Shown one piece after another: positions 48,901-60,209 of a DNA stretch of 64,000 bases; position 1 is the first letter of the stretch, and the number at the start of each line of letters is the position of its first letter. This DNA is from Methylocella silvestris BL2 (GTDB lineage: Bacteria > Pseudomonadota > Alphaproteobacteria > Rhizobiales > Beijerinckiaceae), in NCBI RefSeq assembly GCF_000021745.1, contig NC_011666.1, positions 558,001 to 622,000 of the forward strand, in the 5' to 3' direction. The translations under genes were made by a program, and so were the position numbers. The notes beneath the pieces were generated by a model. The model worked only from the letters and a program-made list of their open reading frames with translations, was not told the origin of the DNA and ran no database searches.

Positions 48901-49326
48901 CTACAGAAACGCTTCAAGCCTTTCGCGCAAGGCTGTCGCATCCTTGGTCTCGCATTCAAAGATTGTCAGCACATCCCAGCCTTGCGCTGTGAGCTCCTGT
49001 CTCGTCCTCGCGTCGCGGCTGCGGTTGCGCGCGATCTTTGCGGTCCAATAGGAAGCGTTGGTTTTCGGCATGCGCGCGCCGCGCTTGCAGTCATGGCCAT
49101 GCCAGAAGCAGCCGTCGACGAAAATCACCTTGCGACGAGTGGCGAAGACAAGATCGGGACAGCCCGGCAGGTTCTTGCGGTGCAGGCGGAAGCGAAATCC
49201 GAGACGGTGCGCAAGCGACCGGACGATCATTTCCGGCCTTGTGTTCGTCGATTTCACGGCGCGCATGACGGCGCTTCGCTCGACGCTGACAGACCCTTCG
49301 GAAAGCGGCAAGGACCCTGCCCTCAT
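48901..49326 (-). CDS. vsr: Very-short-patch mismatch endonuclease Vsr
   Basis: Nicks 5' of the T in T:G mismatches produced by deamination of 5-methylcytosine. It is 141 aa. Family blocks: SVERSAVMRAVKSTNTRPEMIVRSLAHRLGFRFRLHRKNLPGCPDLVF, then VIFVDGCFWHGHDCKRGARMPKTNASYW with the metal and Zn ligands, and WDVLTIFECE at the end. The ATG overlaps the dcm stop (ATGA), so methylase and repair enzyme are made together. No restriction endonuclease gene is near. Confidence 0.93.
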   Translation of the reverse strand: MRAGSLPLSEGSVSVERSAVMRAVKSTNTRPEMIVRSLAHRLGFRFRLHRKNLPGCPDLVFATRRKVIFVDGCFWHGHDCKRGARMPKTNASYWTAKIARNRSRDARTRQELTAQGWDVLTIFECETKDATALRERLEAFL

Positions 49327-50474
49327 TCAGCCGCCTCCGCGGGCTGCGCCTGATGCGCCAAAATCGGCTCAAGAATATGCTGCGCAATATGACGGACGAC
49401 CGGAACCGCCAAACCGTCGCCCGTCAGATGATAGGCGTCATTATAATTCTGCGGCAGGATGTAGGAATCGGGAAGCCCCATCAGCCTTGCCGTCTCGCGC
49501 GCGGTGATCAGCCGCGATCTGACGCGCTGCTTTTCGACCGCAAGAATGAACTGCCGGCTCGATCCGCCCGATGGCGTCCGCAGACATCCGGCGAGCCCGT
49601 CGAACCTTGCCTCGGCCCGCTGGCGCCGCACGCCGTCGGCCTCGAGGCGCGTCCGGCGATAGGCGCAGCCAACGACGGGCGCGCCGCCCTCAGCCGCGCC
49701 CCGCGCGGCCGCAAGCCTTTGCCGGTTTGTCTCGTTCATCAGCGACAGCAGAGCGTCCGTTTCGGCGTCGCTGCGCCAGCGGACCTCGCCGTCATCTTCA
49801 AGAATATCCTTGAGGCGCGCCGCCTGAGGGGCCGGCTCGGGCATGCTCAACCAGATGAACCGGCGCTGCAGCGCAGGCGGCAGCGCGGCATGGGCCTGCC
49901 GCACAGCGGGGGGATGCCACCCGGACGGAGCGGCGGCGGCGAGGCACTGCGGCAGGCGAAGATGTTCGCGAACGCCGATGACGAAAAGGCGCGGCCGCGA
50001 TTGCGGCGCGAACAGCGCGGCGTCGACGATCACCGCTCCGAAGGCGTAGCCGGCGCGGCTGAGACAAGCGCATAGCGCGGTAAAATCGGCGCCGCCATGC
50101 GAGGTCAGCGCTCCCTTTACATTTTCAAGGACGATGAGGTCCGGCGCGCGGCGCTCCCGCGCAAGCTTTTCGATCAGGCTCCAGAACGGGTAGAAGGATC
50201 CGCTCCGGGCGCCGCCAAGTCCCGCCCGTGCCCCCGCAAGCGAGAGATCCTGACAGGGAAAAGACGCCCAGGCGAGATTGGCGCGCGGCGTCTTAATGTC
50301 CGCGGGTTGAAGCGCGCCGACGTCCGCCTCAAAGAGTTCGCCGGCGCCCCAATTGGCTCGATAGGACGCGCATTTACGCGCGTCGAAATCATTGGCGAAT
50401 CGGCATGTCCAGTTTGGGCCGAGTCCCGCGCGCGCCATGCCCCCGCCGGCGAAGAACTCAAGGAAATCCGGCAA
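49323..50474 (-). CDS. DNA (cytosine-5-)-methyltransferase
   Basis: Methylates cytosine at C5 in a DNA target that cannot be read from sequence. It is 383 aa. Motif I: FLEFFAGGGMARAGLG; motif IV with the catalytic Cys: SFPCQDLSLAGARAG; motif VI: LIVLENVKGAL; motif VIII: FAPQSRPRLFVIGVRE; motif X is near GDGLAVPVVRHIAQHI. The target-recognition region lies at about 200-300. It begins 43 bp from the 3' end of tRNA-Arg, hinting at acquisition at a tRNA locus. With Vsr it forms a methylation-repair unit lacking a nuclease partner. Confidence 0.92.
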   Translation of the reverse strand: MPDFLEFFAGGGMARAGLGPNWTCRFANDFDARKCASYRANWGAGELFEADVGALQPADIKTPRANLAWASFPCQDLSLAGARAGLGGARSGSFYPFWSLIEKLARERRAPDLIVLENVKGALTSHGGADFTALCACLSRAGYAFGAVIVDAALFAPQSRPRLFVIGVREHLRLPQCLAAAAPSGWHPPAVRQAHAALPPALQRRFIWLSMPEPAPQAARLKDILEDDGEVRWRSDAETDALLSLMNETNRQRLAAARGAAEGGAPVVGCAYRRTRLEADGVRRQRAEARFDGLAGCLRTPSGGSSRQFILAVEKQRVRSRLITARETARLMGLPDSYILPQNYNDAYHLTGDGLAVPVVRHIAQHILEPILAHQAQPAEAAE

Positions 50475-53263: not shown

Positions 53264-54022
53264 CTATGAGGCGAAAGGTTGAAAAATGTCGCCGATGTCG
53301 CCGCGCAGGACGAGGTCGGCTTCGGCGTCGAGCGGCGTCTCCTCGCCGTTGACGATGACGAGTCGCGCGTCGGTTTCGCGCGCGAGCGATGGGAAGGCGG
53401 CGGCGGGATAGACCACGAGTGACGAGCCAATGGCGAGAAACAAGTCGCAGGCGACGCTTGCCTTGTAAGCCCGCGCCAGCGCCTCCTTCGGCAATGGCTG
53501 ACCAAAGGAGATCGTTGCCGATTTGACGATGCCGCCACAGGCGGCGCAAACGGGCGCGGCGCCGGTCGCCTCGAAAGCGCGCCGGATCGGGAGAAGCTCA
53601 TAACGGGCGCCGCAGGACAAACATCCCGCGTAAGAGCCATTCCCGTGCAATTCGATGATGCGCTCGGCAGGCACGCCCGACGCCTGGTGCAGATTGTCGA
53701 TGTTCTGCGTGATGATGCTGGCGGCCTTGCCGCTGGCGACGAGATTGGCGAGGGCGTAGTGGCCGCGGCCGGGCGTGGCATGGGCGTAAAGATCGTCGAG
53801 CGCGAATTTTCGCCGCCAGGCTTCCTCGCGCATCAAAGCGTCGGAGAGGAACAGGTCGAACTCGATCGGCCTCAGGCGTCGCCAGGGCGAGTCCTTGGAG
53901 CGAAAATCAGGCACGCCGCATTCCGTCGAGATGCCGGCGCCCGTGAACGCCGCGATCTGGCCGGCGACTTCGATCAAATCGCCGAGCGCGGCCTGCGCCG
54001 CCTGAAGGTTCGTTACCAACAA
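53264..54022 (-). CDS. NAD-dependent protein deacylase, Sir2 family
   Basis: Removes acyl groups from lysines using NAD+. It is 252 aa. NAD motifs: AFTGAGISTECGVPDFR, ITQNIDNLHQASG; the catalytic His is in IELHGNG; four zinc cysteines are in CLSCGARYE and CAACGGIVK; GSSLVVYPAAAFP completes the site. The start is TTG 54022 (a second TTG follows), with GGCGAGGG just upstream; no ATG is available near. Convergent neighbours are absent; it is divergent from the SGNH gene across 164 bp. Confidence 0.92.
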   Translation of the reverse strand: MLVTNLQAAQAALGDLIEVAGQIAAFTGAGISTECGVPDFRSKDSPWRRLRPIEFDLFLSDALMREEAWRRKFALDDLYAHATPGRGHYALANLVASGKAASIITQNIDNLHQASGVPAERIIELHGNGSYAGCLSCGARYELLPIRRAFEATGAAPVCAACGGIVKSATISFGQPLPKEALARAYKASVACDLFLAIGSSLVVYPAAAFPSLARETDARLVIVNGEETPLDAEADLVLRGDIGDIFQPFAS

Positions 54023-54126
54023 CCCTCGCCTCCTCCCTGCCCGCCTTAGCCGACAACGCTGGAACGCCGTCGCGCTTTGAAATAAAACGTGACCCCGCGG
54101 CTGTCCGGCGCAGCCTAGACACTTCA

Positions 54127-54147
54127 GCGTCGAACATCTATCGACGC
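54127..54147. repeat. Inverted repeat GCGTCGA-N7-TCGACGC
   Basis: Perfect 7-bp arms in the 164 bp divergent region between sir2 and the first SGNH gene, 40 bases before the latter's ATG. Could be an operator or leader hairpin. Confidence 0.45.
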
Positions 54148-54186
54148 CTCCTTTCGATTATTTCTTTCTGGCAAGTTCGGGCATCT

Positions 54187-55362
54187 ATGACGCGGAAAAC
54201 GTCTCTCCTCCTTCAACTCGCGATAGCGGCGGGTCTTGTCGGGCTTATCGCCTGGCTTGAAATCAAGCATCCCGTGACGCAGTTCCGCGTGTGGACCTTG
54301 CTCGCCGCCAGCCTCTTGCTGGCGAATCTCGCGGTCGCCCTGCAAGGGCGCGGGCGGGACGTCTTGATCGCCCTGACCGCCCTTGGCGTCGGCCTGACCC
54401 TTGCGGAGGGCGTCGCGATCGCGATGCAGCAGGGCGGCGGCCTCGACATTACGCGCGGCTGGTCGGTGCGTCAGCCGATTATGGGCTGGGGGCCGGACAA
54501 AGCGGGCGTCTATCATGCCGAGATGCGCGCCCCGAAAACCAACGCGCTGATCTACAAAGCCGATTATACGATCGATTCCAATCTCTTGCGCAAAACGGAC
54601 TCGGCCGCAAACGGGCCGGCCATCGTGTTCTTTGGCGATTCCTATACATTCGGCGACGGCATCCAGGACAATGAAACGCTGCCCCAGGTGTTCGCCGACT
54701 CCCTGAATCCGAAGCAACGCGTCCTGAACCTTGGCTTTACCGGCTACGGGCCGCAGCAATTCCTGCGTGAGATGGAGACGTCTCGTTTCGATCAGCTTAT
54801 CGGCCCGGATCCGAAATTGTTCATCTTTTTGACCGCCCCGTGGCACGCCGAGCGAACGGCCTGCAAGGCCTATTGGACGGCGCACGCGCCTGTTTACCGA
54901 GTCGAAAACGGCCACGTCGTCTTCAAGGGCCTTTGCGATGAAGGCGCCAAGCTCTGGCTTCGCGAATGGCTGCAGAATTCGGTCGCCTACCGCACGCTGA
55001 CAGAGCCGTATCGCCACATGGTCAGCCATGACGACGTCGAGCTCTATGTCCGCATTCTCGAGGCGGCCGTCGCCATGGCCAAGCAAAAATACGGCGTCGC
55101 CACGCTGATCCCCTATCTGCGGGTTCCGCCCGCCTATTTGGCGGCCTCGGGCTTCACCGATGAGGAGATCATGGCGCGTCTGACCGCTGCGGGCGCGATT
55201 GTCCTCGACGCCTCGCTCAAGGCCGAGGCGGCCGCGGGGGCAACGATCACCATCAAGGGCGACGGCCATCCGACCCCCTTCGCCAATGTCCGCCGCGCCG
55301 AGATGATCAAGACCTATCTCGAGAAAAATATGGCCGGCGTCCTTCTCTCGAATCTGGATTAG
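54187..55362 (+). CDS. Membrane-anchored SGNH/GDSL-like hydrolase, copy 1
   Basis: Predicted esterase/acyl- or acetyl-hydrolase facing the periplasm. It is 391 aa. Two or three N-terminal hydrophobic helices (about 7-24, 36-52, 58-80) precede a soluble domain. The nucleophile motif is FFGDSYTFGDG with Ser152; the block I-like Gly and Asn are in VLNLGFTGYGPQQF; the Asp/His pair is in GDGHPTPFAN (Asp359, His361). PWHAERTACK is shared with copy 2. Its ligand is unknown. It is the first of two tandem paralogues that converge on a carbamoyltransferase operon, suggesting joint work on an envelope molecule. Confidence 0.82.
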   Translation: MTRKTSLLLQLAIAAGLVGLIAWLEIKHPVTQFRVWTLLAASLLLANLAVALQGRGRDVLIALTALGVGLTLAEGVAIAMQQGGGLDITRGWSVRQPIMGWGPDKAGVYHAEMRAPKTNALIYKADYTIDSNLLRKTDSAANGPAIVFFGDSYTFGDGIQDNETLPQVFADSLNPKQRVLNLGFTGYGPQQFLREMETSRFDQLIGPDPKLFIFLTAPWHAERTACKAYWTAHAPVYRVENGHVVFKGLCDEGAKLWLREWLQNSVAYRTLTEPYRHMVSHDDVELYVRILEAAVAMAKQKYGVATLIPYLRVPPAYLAASGFTDEEIMARLTAAGAIVLDASLKAEAAAGATITIKGDGHPTPFANVRRAEMIKTYLEKNMAGVLLSNLD

Positions 55363-55418
55363 ACGGCGCTGCGCGCGGCTTCTCACCTGCGGCCAGGAAT
55401 CGCGCGCTCTTGACGCGA

Positions 55419-55430
55419 CGCTTATAAGCG
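55419..55430. repeat. Perfect 12-bp palindrome CGCTTATAAGCG
   Basis: Lies between the two SGNH genes, directly abutting the hairpin at 55431. Its closeness to the hairpin suggests a shared 3'-end or control role. Confidence 0.4.
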
Positions 55431-55450
55431 GCGAGGACCTTCGTCCTCGC
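55431..55450 (+). terminator. Hairpin between the two SGNH genes
   Basis: GCGAGGAC and GTCCTCGC form a perfect 8-bp stem with a CTTC loop, followed by GCGTTTGGTT. The weak T content makes it a moderate intrinsic terminator candidate for copy 1. Confidence 0.5.
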
Positions 55451-55551
55451 GCGTTTGGTTCCGGTCTTAAGGCCACCTCCTCGCGCAGGAACCGCCTTGA
55501 CGCTCCAGACCGGGACGCGCATCGCCTCAGGGCCAACAGGAGTGTTTTACC

Positions 55552-56781
55552 CTGAATAAGATCGATCCCTCGTCCGATTGGGCTCAAAAGCTTCGTTTCG
55601 GCTGGCTGACGCCGCGCTTCATCTCCATCGTCCTGCGCCTTGCCGCGATTCCGGCGCTGATCGCCCTGATCTTGCACGTCGAGGCGAGTCATTCGCCGAC
55701 GCTGTTCCGGCTGGTCAGCTTCTCGCTTCTGTTTCCGCTGTTCGCCGTCATCGCCTCCCTGCTGCGCGGGGTTGCGCGGAATTGCGCAATCGTTCTGGCC
55801 TCGCTCGCCTTGGGGCTCAGCGTGATGGAAGCGGCCGCCACCTTCCTCGAGCCAAAGCAAATCGTCGTCACGACCGACGGCTGGAACGGGCGTCGGCCGA
55901 TCCTTGGATGGGCGCCGCAGCATCCGGGCGTCTTCCATTCGGACCGCATTGACCCGAAGACCGGCGCCGTCATTTACAGCGCGGATTACACGATCGACGC
56001 CAATCTTCTGCGCGAAACGCGCTCGGGGGACGCCAATCCGACGATCGTCTTCGTCGGAGATTCCTTCACCTTCGGCCTCGGCGTCGATGACGCCGACACC
56101 ATGCCGCAGCAATTCGCCGATCTGATCCAGCGCAAACAGCGCGTGATCAATCTCGGCTTTACCGGCTACGGACCGCAGCATTTCCTGCGCGAAATGCAGA
56201 CCGGGCTGTTCGATCAGGCGATCGGCCCCGATCCCGGCGTTTTCGTGTTTCTGACGTCGCCGTGGCACGCCGAGCGGACGTCTTGCAAAGCCTCATGGGT
56301 CATCGACGGGCCGCGCTATGAGATCGAAAACGGCAAGCTGGTCGACAAGGGCCAATGCTATGAAGGCGATGCGCTAAAACTCCGCCAGTTCATGGAGAGC
56401 AGCGCCCTTTACCGCTTTGCGCTGCAGCCCTACCGCAGCACGATCACGGCGAAGGACGTCGAGGGCTATATCGCGATCATTATCGCGGCGGTCGATCTCG
56501 CCAAGACGAAATATCACGCGCCGACAATCGTGCCCTATCTGAACGGGCATGGATATCTCGCTCAGACCGGCTTCACCGACGCGACAATCATCGAACGTTT
56601 GAGGCAAGGCGGCGCCATGGTCATCGACGCCTCGCTCGAGAAGGAGTTCGCCGAGGGCCAGCCTTTGGTCATCAAGGGCGACGGACATCCAACCGCCCTC
56701 GCCCATCGCCTGCGGATGGAGGCGCTGAAAGCCTATATCGAGCAGAACCTGCCGGGCGTCCTGCAGCCGAAACCGAATTGA
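55552..56781 (+). CDS. Membrane-anchored SGNH/GDSL-like hydrolase, copy 2 (probable CTG start)
   Basis: Paralogue of the preceding gene. It is 409 aa from CTG 55552, which has AGGAG nine bases upstream. No ATG, GTG or TTG occurs in frame between the stop at 55498 and TTG 55672, and starting at 55672 would delete the first membrane helix (SIVLRLAAIPALIALIL) that aligns with copy 1. The nucleophile motif is FVGDSFTFGLG with Ser171; NLGFTGYGPQHF, PWHAERTSCK and GDGHPTALAHR are shared with copy 1. It converges on the carbamoyltransferase gene 49 bp away. Confidence 0.78.
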   Translation: MNKIDPSSDWAQKLRFGWLTPRFISIVLRLAAIPALIALILHVEASHSPTLFRLVSFSLLFPLFAVIASLLRGVARNCAIVLASLALGLSVMEAAATFLEPKQIVVTTDGWNGRRPILGWAPQHPGVFHSDRIDPKTGAVIYSADYTIDANLLRETRSGDANPTIVFVGDSFTFGLGVDDADTMPQQFADLIQRKQRVINLGFTGYGPQHFLREMQTGLFDQAIGPDPGVFVFLTSPWHAERTSCKASWVIDGPRYEIENGKLVDKGQCYEGDALKLRQFMESSALYRFALQPYRSTITAKDVEGYIAIIIAAVDLAKTKYHAPTIVPYLNGHGYLAQTGFTDATIIERLRQGGAMVIDASLEKEFAEGQPLVIKGDGHPTALAHRLRMEALKAYIEQNLPGVLQPKPN

Positions 56782-56830
56782 GAGGATTGCGGCCAGCAAC
56801 GCCTCGAAACGCTGAGATCAAGCCGGCGCG

Positions 56831-58672
56831 TCAATCGAGCTCGAAGGCGTTCTTGTAATCGAGTTTGAGCGCCGGGTTCTGCTGATCCTTGATCAGGATG
56901 CAATTGCCGACCGCGAGAAACTCGATCTCGCTGCCCATAAAGCAGCGGAACGCGTCTTCCGGCGTATTGACGATCGGCTCGCCGCGCACATTGAAGCTCG
57001 TATTGATCAGCACGGGACAGCCGGTCAACGCCTTGAAACGGCTGATCAGCGCGTGATAGCGCGGATTGGTCTCTTCATGCACCGTCTGGACGCGCGCCGA
57101 ATAGTCGACATGGGTCACCGCCGGAATGTCGGATCGCTGTATATTCAGCTTGTCGATGCCAAACAGCGCCTCCTCCGCATCCGACATCTTGCGGCAGCGT
57201 TCTGACTTCACCGGGGCGACGAGCAGCATATAGGGCGAATCGACGTCGAGCTCGAACCAGTCCGAGACGTCCTGGCGCAGCACGGACGGGGCGAAGGGCC
57301 GAAAACTCTCGCGATATTTGACCTTGAGGTTCAGCGCCTTCTGCATCGTCGGCGAGCGCGGATCGCCAAGAATCGAGCGATTGCCCAACGCGCGGGGCCC
57401 GAACTCCATCCGTCCCTGGTGCCAGCCGACCGCCTGCTCGGCGGCAAGCGCGGCGGCGGTTTTCTCGATCAGATGGTCATCGTCGACAACGGAAAATACC
57501 GCCCCGGCCGCGGTCAGTCGCGCTTCGATATCGGCCTGCTCATAGCTCGGACCGAGATAGGCGCCCTGCATGGCGTCCGGCTTTTTCACGCTCTTTTGCG
57601 CGCCGGCCGGCTTTTCGTCGAAATAGACCGCGAGCGCCGCTCCGAGGGCGCCGCCAGCGTCGCCGGCCGCGGGCTGCACGAAAATATTGTCGAAGCGGCC
57701 GTCGCGCAAAATCTTGCCATTGGCGACGCAATTCAGCGCGACGCCGCCAGCAAGACAGAGATTACGCGAGGCTCCGGCCTCCGCGGCGAGCGCGCGCGTC
57801 AGCCGCAGCACGATCTCTTCGGTGGCCGCCTGAACAGAGGCGGCGAGGTCCATATGACGCTGATCGAGCGGGTCGGCGGCGCTACGCGCCGGACCGCCGA
57901 AGAGGTCATCAAACCGGCTGTTGGTCATGGTAAGGCCGGTCGAATAGCCGAAGTAATCCTGGTTCAGCCGGAACGAGCCGTCGGCCTTGACGTCGACGAG
58001 ATGCTCGAAAATCTCTTTGACGAATCTCGGCTCGCCATAGGGGGCGAGCCCCATGACCTTGTATTCGCCGGAGTTGACCTTGAAGCCGGTGTAATAGGTA
58101 AAGGCGGAGTAAAGCAGCCCGAGCGAATGGGGAAAATGGATCTCCTTGGTGATTTTCAAGGATTCGCCTTCGCCGACCGCCGCCGAGGTCGTCGCCCACT
58201 CGCCGACGCCGTCCATGGTCAGCACGGCCGCGTCGCGGAACGGCGAGGGAAAATAGGCCGAAGCCGCATGCGAAAAATGATGTTCGCTGAAGCGCAGCTT
58301 CGCCTTGTCGCCAAGCGCGGGGTCGATCTCCTTCAGGGCGCGGATCAGAAGGTCGCGCTGAAACAGCTTCTCGCCGATCCACAGCGGCATCGCCTTGCGG
58401 AACGAGGCGAAGCCATTGGGCGCAAAAGCCAGATAGGTTTCGACAAGCCGCTCGAATTTCAGGAATGGCTTTTCATAAAACACGATGCGATCGACAGCCG
58501 CAGCCGACGCTTTCGCCTCGCTGAGGCAATAGCGGATTGCGTTCGCCGGAAAATCCGGATCGTGCTTCTTGCGGGTGAAGCGCTCTTCCTGTGCGGCGGC
58601 GAGAATCTCGCCGTCGCGAATCAAGGCGGCCGCGCTGTCGTGATAGAAGGCCGAAATGCCGAGAACGAGCAT
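56831..58672 (-). CDS. NodU/CmcH-family carbamoyltransferase
   Basis: Transfers a carbamoyl group from carbamoyl phosphate via carbamoyl-adenylate to a hydroxyl or amine acceptor. It is 613 aa. The N-terminal Kae1-like domain opens VLGISAFYHDSAAALIRDG and EERFTRKKHDPDFP; the metal-binding His cluster is FSEHHFSHAASAYF (His131, 132, 135); the nucleotide fold continues with LTMDGVGEWATT and GGVALNCVANGKI. The C-terminal YrdC-like domain shows GWHQGRMEFGPRALGNRSILGDPR and SFNVRGEPIVNTPEDA. The acceptor is unknown. It is six bases after the DUF5989 gene, third in the SxtJ-DUF5989 operon. Confidence 0.9.
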   Translation of the reverse strand: MLVLGISAFYHDSAAALIRDGEILAAAQEERFTRKKHDPDFPANAIRYCLSEAKASAAAVDRIVFYEKPFLKFERLVETYLAFAPNGFASFRKAMPLWIGEKLFQRDLLIRALKEIDPALGDKAKLRFSEHHFSHAASAYFPSPFRDAAVLTMDGVGEWATTSAAVGEGESLKITKEIHFPHSLGLLYSAFTYYTGFKVNSGEYKVMGLAPYGEPRFVKEIFEHLVDVKADGSFRLNQDYFGYSTGLTMTNSRFDDLFGGPARSAADPLDQRHMDLAASVQAATEEIVLRLTRALAAEAGASRNLCLAGGVALNCVANGKILRDGRFDNIFVQPAAGDAGGALGAALAVYFDEKPAGAQKSVKKPDAMQGAYLGPSYEQADIEARLTAAGAVFSVVDDDHLIEKTAAALAAEQAVGWHQGRMEFGPRALGNRSILGDPRSPTMQKALNLKVKYRESFRPFAPSVLRQDVSDWFELDVDSPYMLLVAPVKSERCRKMSDAEEALFGIDKLNIQRSDIPAVTHVDYSARVQTVHEETNPRYHALISRFKALTGCPVLINTSFNVRGEPIVNTPEDAFRCFMGSEIEFLAVGNCILIKDQQNPALKLDYKNAFELD

Positions 58673-58678
58673 CGCGCG

Positions 58679-58828
58679 TCAGAACAGCGTGTAGATGAAG
58701 GGGGCGACGGCGGAGCCCTGGCTCAGCACGAACAACCCGCCGAAGATCAGGAAGAGAGCCAGCAGCGGCAGCAGCCAGAACTTCTTTCTGGCTCCGAGAA
58801 ATTCGAAAAGTTCTGCAATGATCGACAT
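58679..58828 (-). CDS. DUF5989 family small membrane protein
   Basis: A 49-aa protein of unknown function. An amphipathic start (SIIAELFEFLGARKKFW) is followed by one transmembrane helix (LLPLLALFLIFGGLFVLSQ) and the family ending GSAVAPFIYTLF. The match to DUF5989 is from memory of the family pattern. It is tightly packed: nine bases after the SxtJ stop and six before the carbamoyltransferase start, so the three form an operon. A small scaffold or anchor for the carbamoyltransferase is a reasonable inference. Confidence 0.85.
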   Translation of the reverse strand: MSIIAELFEFLGARKKFWLLPLLALFLIFGGLFVLSQGSAVAPFIYTLF

Positions 58829-58837
58829 GGCTGTTCC

Positions 58838-59269
58838 TCAGAATTGTTTGGTCATGCCGCCCTCGCCGGAGGCGGGCCCGCGGGCGATCCAATAGGTGGC
58901 GGCGTCAGGTTTGAGCTGGAGGTTGAGCAGGTCGGCGCCCCGTTTGCGCATGATCCAGCCGAGCGGCGTCACCGCGCCGAAGAACATCAACCCCATCACG
59001 AGCGGATTGACGATGCGGTTCAAAAGCAGGCCGAGCTTGAACCAGGCGCGGTTGAGCGGATCGAGACGCTCGGGCGCGGCCATGGCCACAGCTGCGAAAA
59101 GCACTGCGACCGCAAGCAGGATCCAGCGCGGCGAGTGATGCGGCGAGTGATGATGAATGAGAGGCAAAAAGGCGAAGACCGCAAAGATCGCGGCGAAGGT
59201 CAGCCCGAATTTCCGATTGGACCCCAGAACGACCTTTCGGAAGCTGGAGACATTTTCATGGGTCTGCAT
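58838..59269 (-). CDS. SxtJ-family membrane protein
   Basis: Function unknown; named after a gene of cyanobacterial saxitoxin clusters, where it also lies by a carbamoyltransferase. It is 143 aa. Two or three hydrophobic helices (FGLTFAAIFAVFAFLPLI, WILLAVAVLFAAVAMAA, IVNPLVMGLMFFGAVTPLGWI) are separated by the conserved LDPLNRAWFKLGLLLNRIVNPLVMG; MRKRGADLLNLQLKPDAATYWIAR is the cytoplasmic end. The SD is poor. It leads an operon with DUF5989 and the carbamoyltransferase; similarity to SxtJ does not imply toxin synthesis. Confidence 0.85.
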   Translation of the reverse strand: MQTHENVSSFRKVVLGSNRKFGLTFAAIFAVFAFLPLIHHHSPHHSPRWILLAVAVLFAAVAMAAPERLDPLNRAWFKLGLLLNRIVNPLVMGLMFFGAVTPLGWIMRKRGADLLNLQLKPDAATYWIARGPASGEGGMTKQF

Positions 59270-59759
59270 GGGCTTGTGCTTCGTCCTCGGGAAAGTGTCG
59301 GGAGGTCCTGATACGCCGCTGGCCGCAGCCAGCCGCTTCGCGCTGCCAACAATACAAGGGCGCGCCCTATATGGAGATCGACTATGGTGTAAGTTCGAGC
59401 CTATCGAATCGCGAGTCTTTTGTCATTTCCCCGTCGTCAAAACAAGTCCAAAGCGGCGGCGCCATTTCTACACCTATCGGCCCGAGCTGACGCCGGTCGA
59501 ATAATTCTCCTAGATTCAAGCCGCGCCGCAACTATTGTCTGCTAAAGCCTACAAAAATAGTGGACATTTGGCGAAAGGGCGCCTATTTGCGTGGCGCATG
59601 ACGCTGAAAAGTTACAGAGTTTCCGAGCCAGCATTATGCGCTAAATTCTTGGAATCGATGATTTTCATGATTCTTGATTAAGCTGGTTCAAAAATCAGCT
59701 GCGCTCAAAAAGCGTGACGCGAGCGCGATCCTGTCCAAAAACGCGCGCATGGGGATTTG
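59270..59759. other. Gene-free 490 bp between SxtJ and the Rrf2 gene
   Basis: Divergent control region. Near the left end there is a candidate leftward promoter (59366-59393). The right half is AT-rich, with short repeats GAATC/GATTC (59652-59673), and should hold the Rrf2 promoter. No gene with family resemblance was found in any frame. Confidence 0.5.
59366..59393 (-). promoter_or_regulatory. Candidate promoter of the SxtJ-DUF5989-carbamoyltransferase operon
   Basis: On the minus strand CTTACA (59393-59388) and TATAGG (59371-59366) are 16 bases apart, four matches each to the sigma-70 hexamers. The leader would be about 90 nt. Confidence 0.35.
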
Positions 59760-60209
59760 ATGCTCACCAAAAAAGGCAAATATGGTTTGAAGGCGATGGT
59801 CCACCTGGCCGGATATCTTCCCGGCGAAGCGACCCTGGTGACGGATATTGCGACGGCGAATCAAATTCCGAAGAAATTTCTCGACACAATCCTCGGCGAA
59901 TTGCGCAACGCCGGTTTCGTCAATTCAAAGAAAGGCAAGGGCGGCGGCTATACGCTGGCCCGTCCGGCGCATGAGATCAAGGTCGGCCACATCGTGCGTG
60001 TGCTTGACGGGCCGCTGGCCCCGATCCAATGCGCCAGCGCCACATCCTACCGGCGATGCGACGATTGCACGGACGAGAAGCGCTGCGGCGTCCGGCTGAT
60101 CATGCTCGAGGCGCGCAATGCAATCGCTGAGGTGCTCGACAACCGCACTTTGGCTGAGATGCGCGCCCTGACGCAAAGCGATGACGCGCGCCTCATGTAT
60201 TATATTTGA
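59760..60209 (+). CDS. Rrf2-family transcriptional regulator
   Basis: Winged-helix regulator, often with an iron-sulfur cluster. It is 149 aa from ATG 59760. MLTKKGKYGLKAMVHLAG is the family opening; the recognition helix is about IATANQIPKKFLDTILGELRNAGFV; KGKGGGYTLARP is the wing. The C-terminal part carries four cysteines in CASATSYRRCDDCTDEKRC, compatible with a 2Fe-2S or redox sensor. No suf/isc genes are adjacent, so its target is unclear; the divergent SxtJ operon is a possible one. It converges on adk. Confidence 0.88.
   Translation: MLTKKGKYGLKAMVHLAGYLPGEATLVTDIATANQIPKKFLDTILGELRNAGFVNSKKGKGGGYTLARPAHEIKVGHIVRVLDGPLAPIQCASATSYRRCDDCTDEKRCGVRLIMLEARNAIAEVLDNRTLAEMRALTQSDDARLMYYI

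Follow-up and report, generated by a model that had tools for sequence, protein, structure and literature searches.

A five-gene locus of Methylocella silvestris BL2 raises the question of what an O-carbamoyltransferase (CTase) does beside small membrane proteins and SGNH proteins. The locus lies in a 64,000-nucleotide stretch of contig NC_011666.1 (positions 558,001–622,000), hereafter the window. Two plus-strand SGNH genes (SGNH1 and SGNH2) stand tail to tail with a minus-strand operon encoding an SxtJ-like membrane protein, the microprotein DUF5989, and the CTase. This five-gene arrangement, already described in a first-pass annotation, was confirmed by the gene coordinates and Pfam. The end of SGNH2 (56781) and that of the CTase gene (56831) are 49 bp apart, and the gaps within the operon are 9 bp (SxtJ–DUF5989) and 6 bp (DUF5989–CTase). 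The annotation had proposed that the SGNH proteins remove ester groups and that SxtJ and DUF5989 serve as membrane anchors. From the sequence comparisons described below, we lean toward a different view, in which the module would be a transmembrane O-carbamoylation relay that needs no membrane-bound O-acyltransferase (MBOAT).

DUF5989 matched PF19451 (4.3e-23, 81.6 bits); a conserved RKK precedes its one hydrophobic helix, and the C-terminal end reads GSAVAPFIYTLF. The final FIYTLF directly follows the single predicted transmembrane helix and would be on the side opposite the conserved RKK. This ending matches FXYXXF, the C-terminal acyl shuttle motif. According to PMC12148441, FXYXXF is found at the C-terminus of DltX and also of MBOATs like PatA, where the tyrosine accepts the acyl group and passes it to the serine of an SGNH transferase. 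There, the motif and the tyrosine chemistry are shown for PatA, with the Neisseria PatA peptide FIYANF, and stated for DltX, and PatB was assayed with acetyl-FIYANF (PMC12148441).

Among 123 distinct DUF5989 copies of at least 44 residues, Tyr at position −4 and the last Phe were invariant (123/123), and Phe at −6 was present in 122. One of these copies (L123) carries an upstream frameshift, and a 26-residue fragment of its gene in another frame was excluded from the count. In another phylum, that of a Bdellovibrionales genome, Tyr at −4 was found in 50/50 copies and the strict FXYXXF in 41 (50 loci from 81 matched rows, 20 of them chosen among low scores). The ending is rare: 139 of 41,583 distinct open reading frame (ORF) segments from 140 loci and the window carried it, and 128 of these had a DUF5989-type ending. 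The remaining 11 comprised nine MBOATs by Pfam, one catalase-family ORF, and one short unscanned ORF. In a separate set of MBOAT loci (30 of 33 MBOAT rows), the motif was at the C-terminus of 21 MBOATs. Only PF19451 matched DUF5989 up to an E-value of 10, the DltX model PF12459 being unmatched in the whole genome, and DltX homologues for comparison were found in 0/299 cases in Pseudomonadota. Solved structural relatives of DUF5989 were not found up to E 10, and of five long open frames inspected (L322, L069, L074, L072, and L239), none joined DUF5989 to another protein. A 50-codon frame ending in FTYQMF, unreported by the DUF5989 profile and perhaps a divergent shuttle, was seen at L279 (3031–3180, minus strand).

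The genes had been regarded as one module, and neighborhood counts, in which the members co-occurred far above chance, bear this out. With the CTase as sole query, the top 80 of 585 loci were taken; by record titles, they came from Alpha-, Beta-, and Gammaproteobacteria, Acidobacteria, Bdellovibrionales, Magnetococcales, and others. Within 2.5 kb upstream of the CTase and on the same strand, DUF5989 was found in 76/80 of these loci and SxtJ in 78/80. In loci retrieved by DUF5989 (20 of 30 rows from the order and 40 of 43 from the family; the window, rows under the threshold, and part of the order rows were excluded), SxtJ, DUF5989, and CTase occurred in that order on one strand in 56/60, with L043, L046, L050, and L097 as exceptions. 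Among 150 genomes of the order, DUF5989 was present in all 23 whose CTase had 62% identity or more and absent from all 17 whose CTases reached no more than 45% identity in the best segment (Fisher, 1e-11); one further genome (G132) had a borderline DUF5989 match (26.4 bits) and no CTase match. By these counts, the association is beyond chance. The tie of DUF5989 to one CTase clade holds within the order; in the other phylum, several more distant CTases also adjoin divergent DUF5989 copies (L270, L272, L277, L278, and L280). Decayed DUF5989 genes, with Cys replacing the Tyr, separate SxtJ from CTase in two loci of Bradyrhizobium, and in a third the gene has been lost (L153, L158, and L180). All three genomes keep an intact DUF5989 elsewhere, a pattern that agrees with a putative need for the shuttle.

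The SGNH genes were likewise enriched beside the module. PF13472 (Lipase_GDSL_2; E of 0.01 or lower) matched 28/123 immediate neighbors, 4/119 second neighbors, and 4/130 far genes (immediate neighbors versus the rest pooled, Fisher, 9e-9). The immediate neighbors were 123 scanned of 138, with L127 (one of its neighbors an SGNH), the near duplicates L158, L162, and L180, fragments at contig edges, and a few more omitted; the closest relatives (L121–L124) stood outside this set, and the far genes were 130 taken at random from 289. A purpose-built SGNH profile made from family members matched within 1.5 kb in 32/68 loci, compared with 2/49 belts lying 5.0–6.5 kb away. Other neighbors were mixed housekeeping and glycan genes, with no single acceptor pathway among them. 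DUF5989 copies with no same-strand CTase beside them adjoin an SGNH gene on the same strand in L025, L028, L050, L043, and L097, all five from the order and family samples. The same pairing was found in six loci of the other phylum (L268, L269, L271, L276, L285, and L286), with an SxtJ–CTase pair next door on the opposite strand in L285 and L286. The enrichment and these five and six pairs support the SGNH proteins as real partners in the module, as the first-pass annotation had held.

A Bdellovibrionales locus (L288, 3878–7701, minus strand) places DUF5989 in an operon of another kind. Its products are a PP-binding-like carrier (19.2 bits; cut-off, 20.8), an LnmK-like protein, an MBOAT whose C-terminus is without the motif, a DUF5989 ending in FVYFNF (30.1 bits), and an SGNH protein that shares 33% identity with SGNH1 across 205 residues and scores below the PF13472 cut-off. 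By analogy, the carrier, the MBOAT, DUF5989, and the SGNH protein are counterparts of DltC, DltB, DltX, and DltD, respectively. Of the nine MBOATs in the MBOAT set that are without the strict motif, four have Tyr at −4 (L300, L303, L317, and L321), and one (L305, the MBOAT of the L288 operon) has DUF5989 beside it. At L289 (7890–9952, minus strand), a DUF5989 ending in PAIYLLF and an SGNH gene lie beside an ORF that by eye resembles a PP-loop ATPase, perhaps a third kind of donor; profiles found neither CTase nor MBOAT in this stretch.

Because the C-terminal tyrosine motif is invariant, and because DUF5989 occurs both in pairs with SGNH genes away from any adjacent CTase and in the MBOAT–DUF5989–SGNH operon, DUF5989 is probably more than an anchor, namely a shuttle that supplies an SGNH transferase. 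The earlier view of DUF5989 as a mere membrane anchor is not supported by these observations. The motif might instead be a docking peptide for CTase or SxtJ, its likeness to the acyl shuttle being coincidental. SxtJ also ends in a conserved QF (Q in 79/79 sequences, F in 77/79), which makes C-terminal docking tails conceivable, and DUF5989 follows the CTase clade almost perfectly within the order. However, outside DUF5989 the FXYXXF ending marks MBOATs (9/11), DUF5989 copies with no adjacent CTase retain the Tyr beside SGNH genes, and in L288 the partner of DUF5989 is a tail-less MBOAT; we consider docking improbable.

If DUF5989 is a shuttle, the question arises of what loads it. Among 40 hand-picked module genomes, all at least 98% complete (SxtJ was not checked in G025 and G075), 18 had no match to PF03062 (MBOAT), this genome included, and the other 22 have MBOATs. 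An MBOAT acting in trans was thus ruled out for this genome and 17 others. In these genomes the shuttle would have to be loaded otherwise, for which the CTase together with SxtJ is the evident candidate.

The CTase matched PF02543 (4.8e-106, 355.5 bits) and PF16861 (2.2e-73, 245.8 bits), and the Carbam_trans_N and Carbam_trans_C domains are both present over the full-length protein. Its residues 8–603 align with the solved novobiocin CTase (9s2t) and residues 8–601 with GdmN. Stretches in common with solved CTases, such as EFGPRALG and NTSFN, which we take to be functional in these enzymes, are present. It is the single PF02543 match in the whole genome. The Pfam matches and the alignment with solved relatives uphold its placement in the NodU/CmcH family, and support that it is a true O-carbamoyltransferase relative with predicted transfer activity. 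Second, distant CTases occur near the module at L126 (15062–16789), L176 (5131–6843), and L042 (745–2472), with no SxtJ or DUF5989 profile matches directly beside them.

The SxtJ-like protein scored 22.4 bits with PF19588, just under the curated cut-off of 24.4, and SGNH1 and SGNH2 scored 22.7 and 24.7 bits, respectively, with PF13472, both under the cut-off of 32.9. These identities are supported by conserved residues and by the neighborhood, with which the SxtJ assignment agrees. W76, P89, P102, W127, and Q142 of SxtJ were kept in 79/79 sequences. In 62 distinct aligned SGNH neighbors (a non-SGNH row, L172, and repeated rows were excluded), Ser152 and His361 were kept in 62/62 and Asp359 in 55/62 (SGNH1 numbering). 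All 62 have an N-terminal hydrophobic stretch, the topology being taken from hydropathy only. The window SGNH proteins have the Ser, Asp, His, and block II Gly; the block III Asn is absent and replaced by an unusual stretch (APWHAERT in SGNH1), for which Polynucleobacter copies have APWHASR. A search for solved relatives of SGNH1 gave a single match (E 0.39), named as a solute-binding protein.

These residues also bear on an alternative model, in which the CTase works in the cytoplasm and carbamoylates the precursor of a glycan or lipid, with SxtJ and DUF5989 as its anchors only and with SGNH esterases that strip groups outside. Known CTases modify free acceptors in the cytosol, and the invariant Ser and His, together with the block II Gly kept in 51/62 SGNH proteins, fit such esterases. 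SxtL of the saxitoxin set has, moreover, been proposed as a decarbamoylase (PMC2679770). This model is nonetheless unlikely: the invariant motif on the microprotein, the DUF5989–SGNH pairs with no adjacent CTase, the MBOAT–DUF5989–SGNH operon, and the absence of the block III Asn in the window SGNH proteins are left unexplained by it. The pairs and the operon favor a transferase, and an SGNH transferase rather than a de-esterase is our best model. The interpretation of the first-pass annotation is supported for the module, the SGNH partners, and the CTase identity, and not supported for de-esterification and for an anchor-only DUF5989.

The number of adjacent SGNH copies in relatives within the family ranges from none to five in tandem. 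The five-copy tandem adjoins the trio in a congeneric genome (L101, 1947–8026). SGNH2 very probably begins at CTG 55552, since this codon, which follows CAGGAG, the frame, and the 40 extra residues are conserved in M. silvestris TVC (L121). From this start, SGNH2 has three N-terminal hydrophobic stretches, as in SGNH1. Table 1 lists the features.

Table 1. Features of the SGNH–SxtJ–DUF5989–CTase locus (positions in the window)
Feature	Position	Strand	Description
SGNH1, 391 aa	54187..55362	+	SGNH domain preceded by three hydrophobic stretches at the N-terminus; candidate terminal O-carbamoyltransferase
SGNH2, 409 aa from CTG	55552..56781	+	Paralogue (about 50%) of SGNH1; TTG 55672 is the start of the listed ORF
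CTase, NodU/CmcH-family O-carbamoyltransferase, 613 aa	56831..58672	-	Proposed cytoplasmic carbamoyl donor enzyme
DUF5989, 49 aa, one transmembrane helix	58679..58828	-	Proposed carbamoyl-shuttle microprotein, DltX-like
C-terminal FIYTLF (FXYXXF) of DUF5989	58682..58699	-	Proposed shuttle Tyr46 at 58691-58693
SxtJ-like membrane protein, 143 aa	58838..59269	-	Contains three hydrophobic stretches and ends in ...QF; proposed to act in the membrane as a partner for CTase-DUF5989 coupling

The genome is a single contig of 4,305,430 bp with one DUF5989. Among the named records compared, the closest genome was that of strain TVC, whose CTase is 98% identical. The dN/dS values against this strain were 0.11 for SGNH1, 0.08 for SGNH2, and 0.02 for the CTase, and the DUF5989 protein is identical. 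All five genes look to be under purifying selection, with values of 0 to 0.11 between the two strains. The module is flanked by genes for a Sir2-family deacylase (53264–54022, minus strand) and an Rrf2-family regulator (59757–60209, plus strand), with no evident link to it. Long antisense open frames of 714 codons opposite the SGNH genes (54124–56268, minus strand) and 630 codons opposite the CTase gene (57419–59311, plus strand) are most likely shadows of high G+C coding. Farther away, a frame with a TTG start (49323–50474, minus strand) resembles a DNA cytosine methyltransferase by eye.

The grouping of these genes is itself not new, as a like set is described in the saxitoxin cluster (PMC2679770). 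In sxtI–sxtJ–sxtK–sxtL, a CTase, SxtJ, a small protein (165-bp gene), and a GDSL protein lie side by side; J and K act with I, and L was proposed to remove the carbamoyl group (PMC2679770). Unlike here, the acceptor is a small alkaloid, in a comparison made from the literature only. That sxtK is DUF5989 is a guess from gene size alone. NodU, TobZ, GdmN, and the novobiocin O-carbamoyltransferase belong to the same two-domain enzyme family; in contrast to the module, genomes of the order with only CTases of this more distant kind (at most 45% identity) have no DUF5989. The Dlt system (DltA, B, C, X, and D; teichoic acid D-alanylation) shares a cytoplasmic activating enzyme, a membrane microprotein with FXYXXF, and a terminal SGNH protein (PMC12148441), whereas here carbamoyl would take the place of D-alanine, a NodU-type CTase that of DltA/DltC, and SxtJ that of the MBOAT DltB. 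PatA/PatB peptidoglycan O-acetylation and AlgIJFX-type MBOAT–SGNH systems likewise combine the FXYXXF shuttle tyrosine with an SGNH transferase anchored by an N-terminal helix, but their motif is the tail of the MBOAT, and here it is on a separate protein in a genome with no MBOAT match. By analogy, the module would work like the MBOAT–SGNH relays, yet it falls outside that family, having no PF03062 match. In the literature searched, which covered few subscription papers, FXYXXF was named in PMC12148441 alone among the papers listed, and DUF5989 in none of those listed for it or for SxtJ. We found there neither a DUF5989 with an acyl-shuttle motif nor a GDSL partner adding carbamoyl, and no paper combining MBOAT, SGNH, and carbamoyl, or acyltransferase, microprotein, and carbamoyltransferase. 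DltX and carbamoyl were mentioned together there, on other matters judging by titles.

Several observations weigh against the relay. The strict hexapeptide is departed from in 9/50 DUF5989 copies of the other phylum. The block II Gly retained in most SGNH proteins is hydrolase-like, and PatB and OatA replace it. No invariant His of the MBOAT kind was found in the 79 SxtJ sequences, so that the crossing of carbamoyl from a cytosolic CTase to an outward-facing Tyr is unexplained. Known CTases act directly on small molecules, and serine carbamates are chemically slow to turn over. Fewer than half of the loci (the 32/68 above) have an SGNH inside 1.5 kb. Neither CTase nor SGNH was near DUF5989 in the stretches of L046, L202, L203, L205, and L207, or of L239, L261, L266, L267, L282, and L284 in the other phylum; the L046 genome carries a CTase elsewhere. 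The MBOAT–DUF5989 operon is known from one locus only, and four MBOATs (L304, L312, L313, and L316) have no Tyr at −4 and no DUF5989 in the stretch searched.

The sequence-level evidence for the relay consists of the motif, its invariance, co-occurrence, adjacency, and MBOAT absence; the chemistry of each step, the membrane topology, and the acceptor are inferred. In the proposed scheme, the cytoplasmic CTase would make activated carbamoyl from carbamoyl phosphate and ATP, as is the chemistry of its family. Docked to SxtJ, it would load the carbamoyl group onto Tyr46 of DUF5989. As with DltX and PatA, the carbamoyl-Tyr would hand the group to the active-site Ser of the membrane-anchored SGNH protein. 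The SGNH protein would then place it on a hydroxyl group of an extracytoplasmic envelope molecule, probably a glycan. Where SGNH paralogues stand in tandem (two here, five in one relative), they would serve different acceptors or positions.

Like the first-pass annotation, we leave the acceptor unnamed. Hopanoid lipids are one candidate, in which case the module would yield C-35 carbamoyl bacteriohopanepolyols. Carbamoyl hopanoids are reported in Enhydrobacter, Rhodopseudomonas palustris, and Rhodoblastus (PMC12583986), and a hopene cyclase is encoded in this genome and in the tested Methylocapsa, Beijerinckia, Rhodopseudomonas, and Bradyrhizobium genomes. However, the PF13243 cyclase is absent from 9/16 hand-picked module genomes, two Polynucleobacter and HTCC2150 among them, and only weakly matched in 2 more. 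The nine genomes rule out hopanoid carbamoylation as the general function; it is conceivable in this organism, and overall we regard a hopanoid acceptor as very unlikely.

Seen across the genomes compared, the relay may be of wider use. We find it about evenly balanced whether O-carbamoylation of the envelope is widespread, proceeding through a tyrosine-charged 49-residue microprotein with no MBOAT, and whether DUF5989 is a portable acyl shuttle serving differing donors, a CTase in one setting and an MBOAT with a carrier protein in another. If the relay is correct, DUF5989 would no longer be a domain of unknown function, and SxtJ would gain a role. Carbamoyl would join the groups carried across the bacterial membrane on tyrosine, and such a relay would be possible without an MBOAT. 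The relay would also reverse the earlier proposal on GDSL proteins beside carbamoyltransferases, in that carbamoyl would be added by them and not removed.

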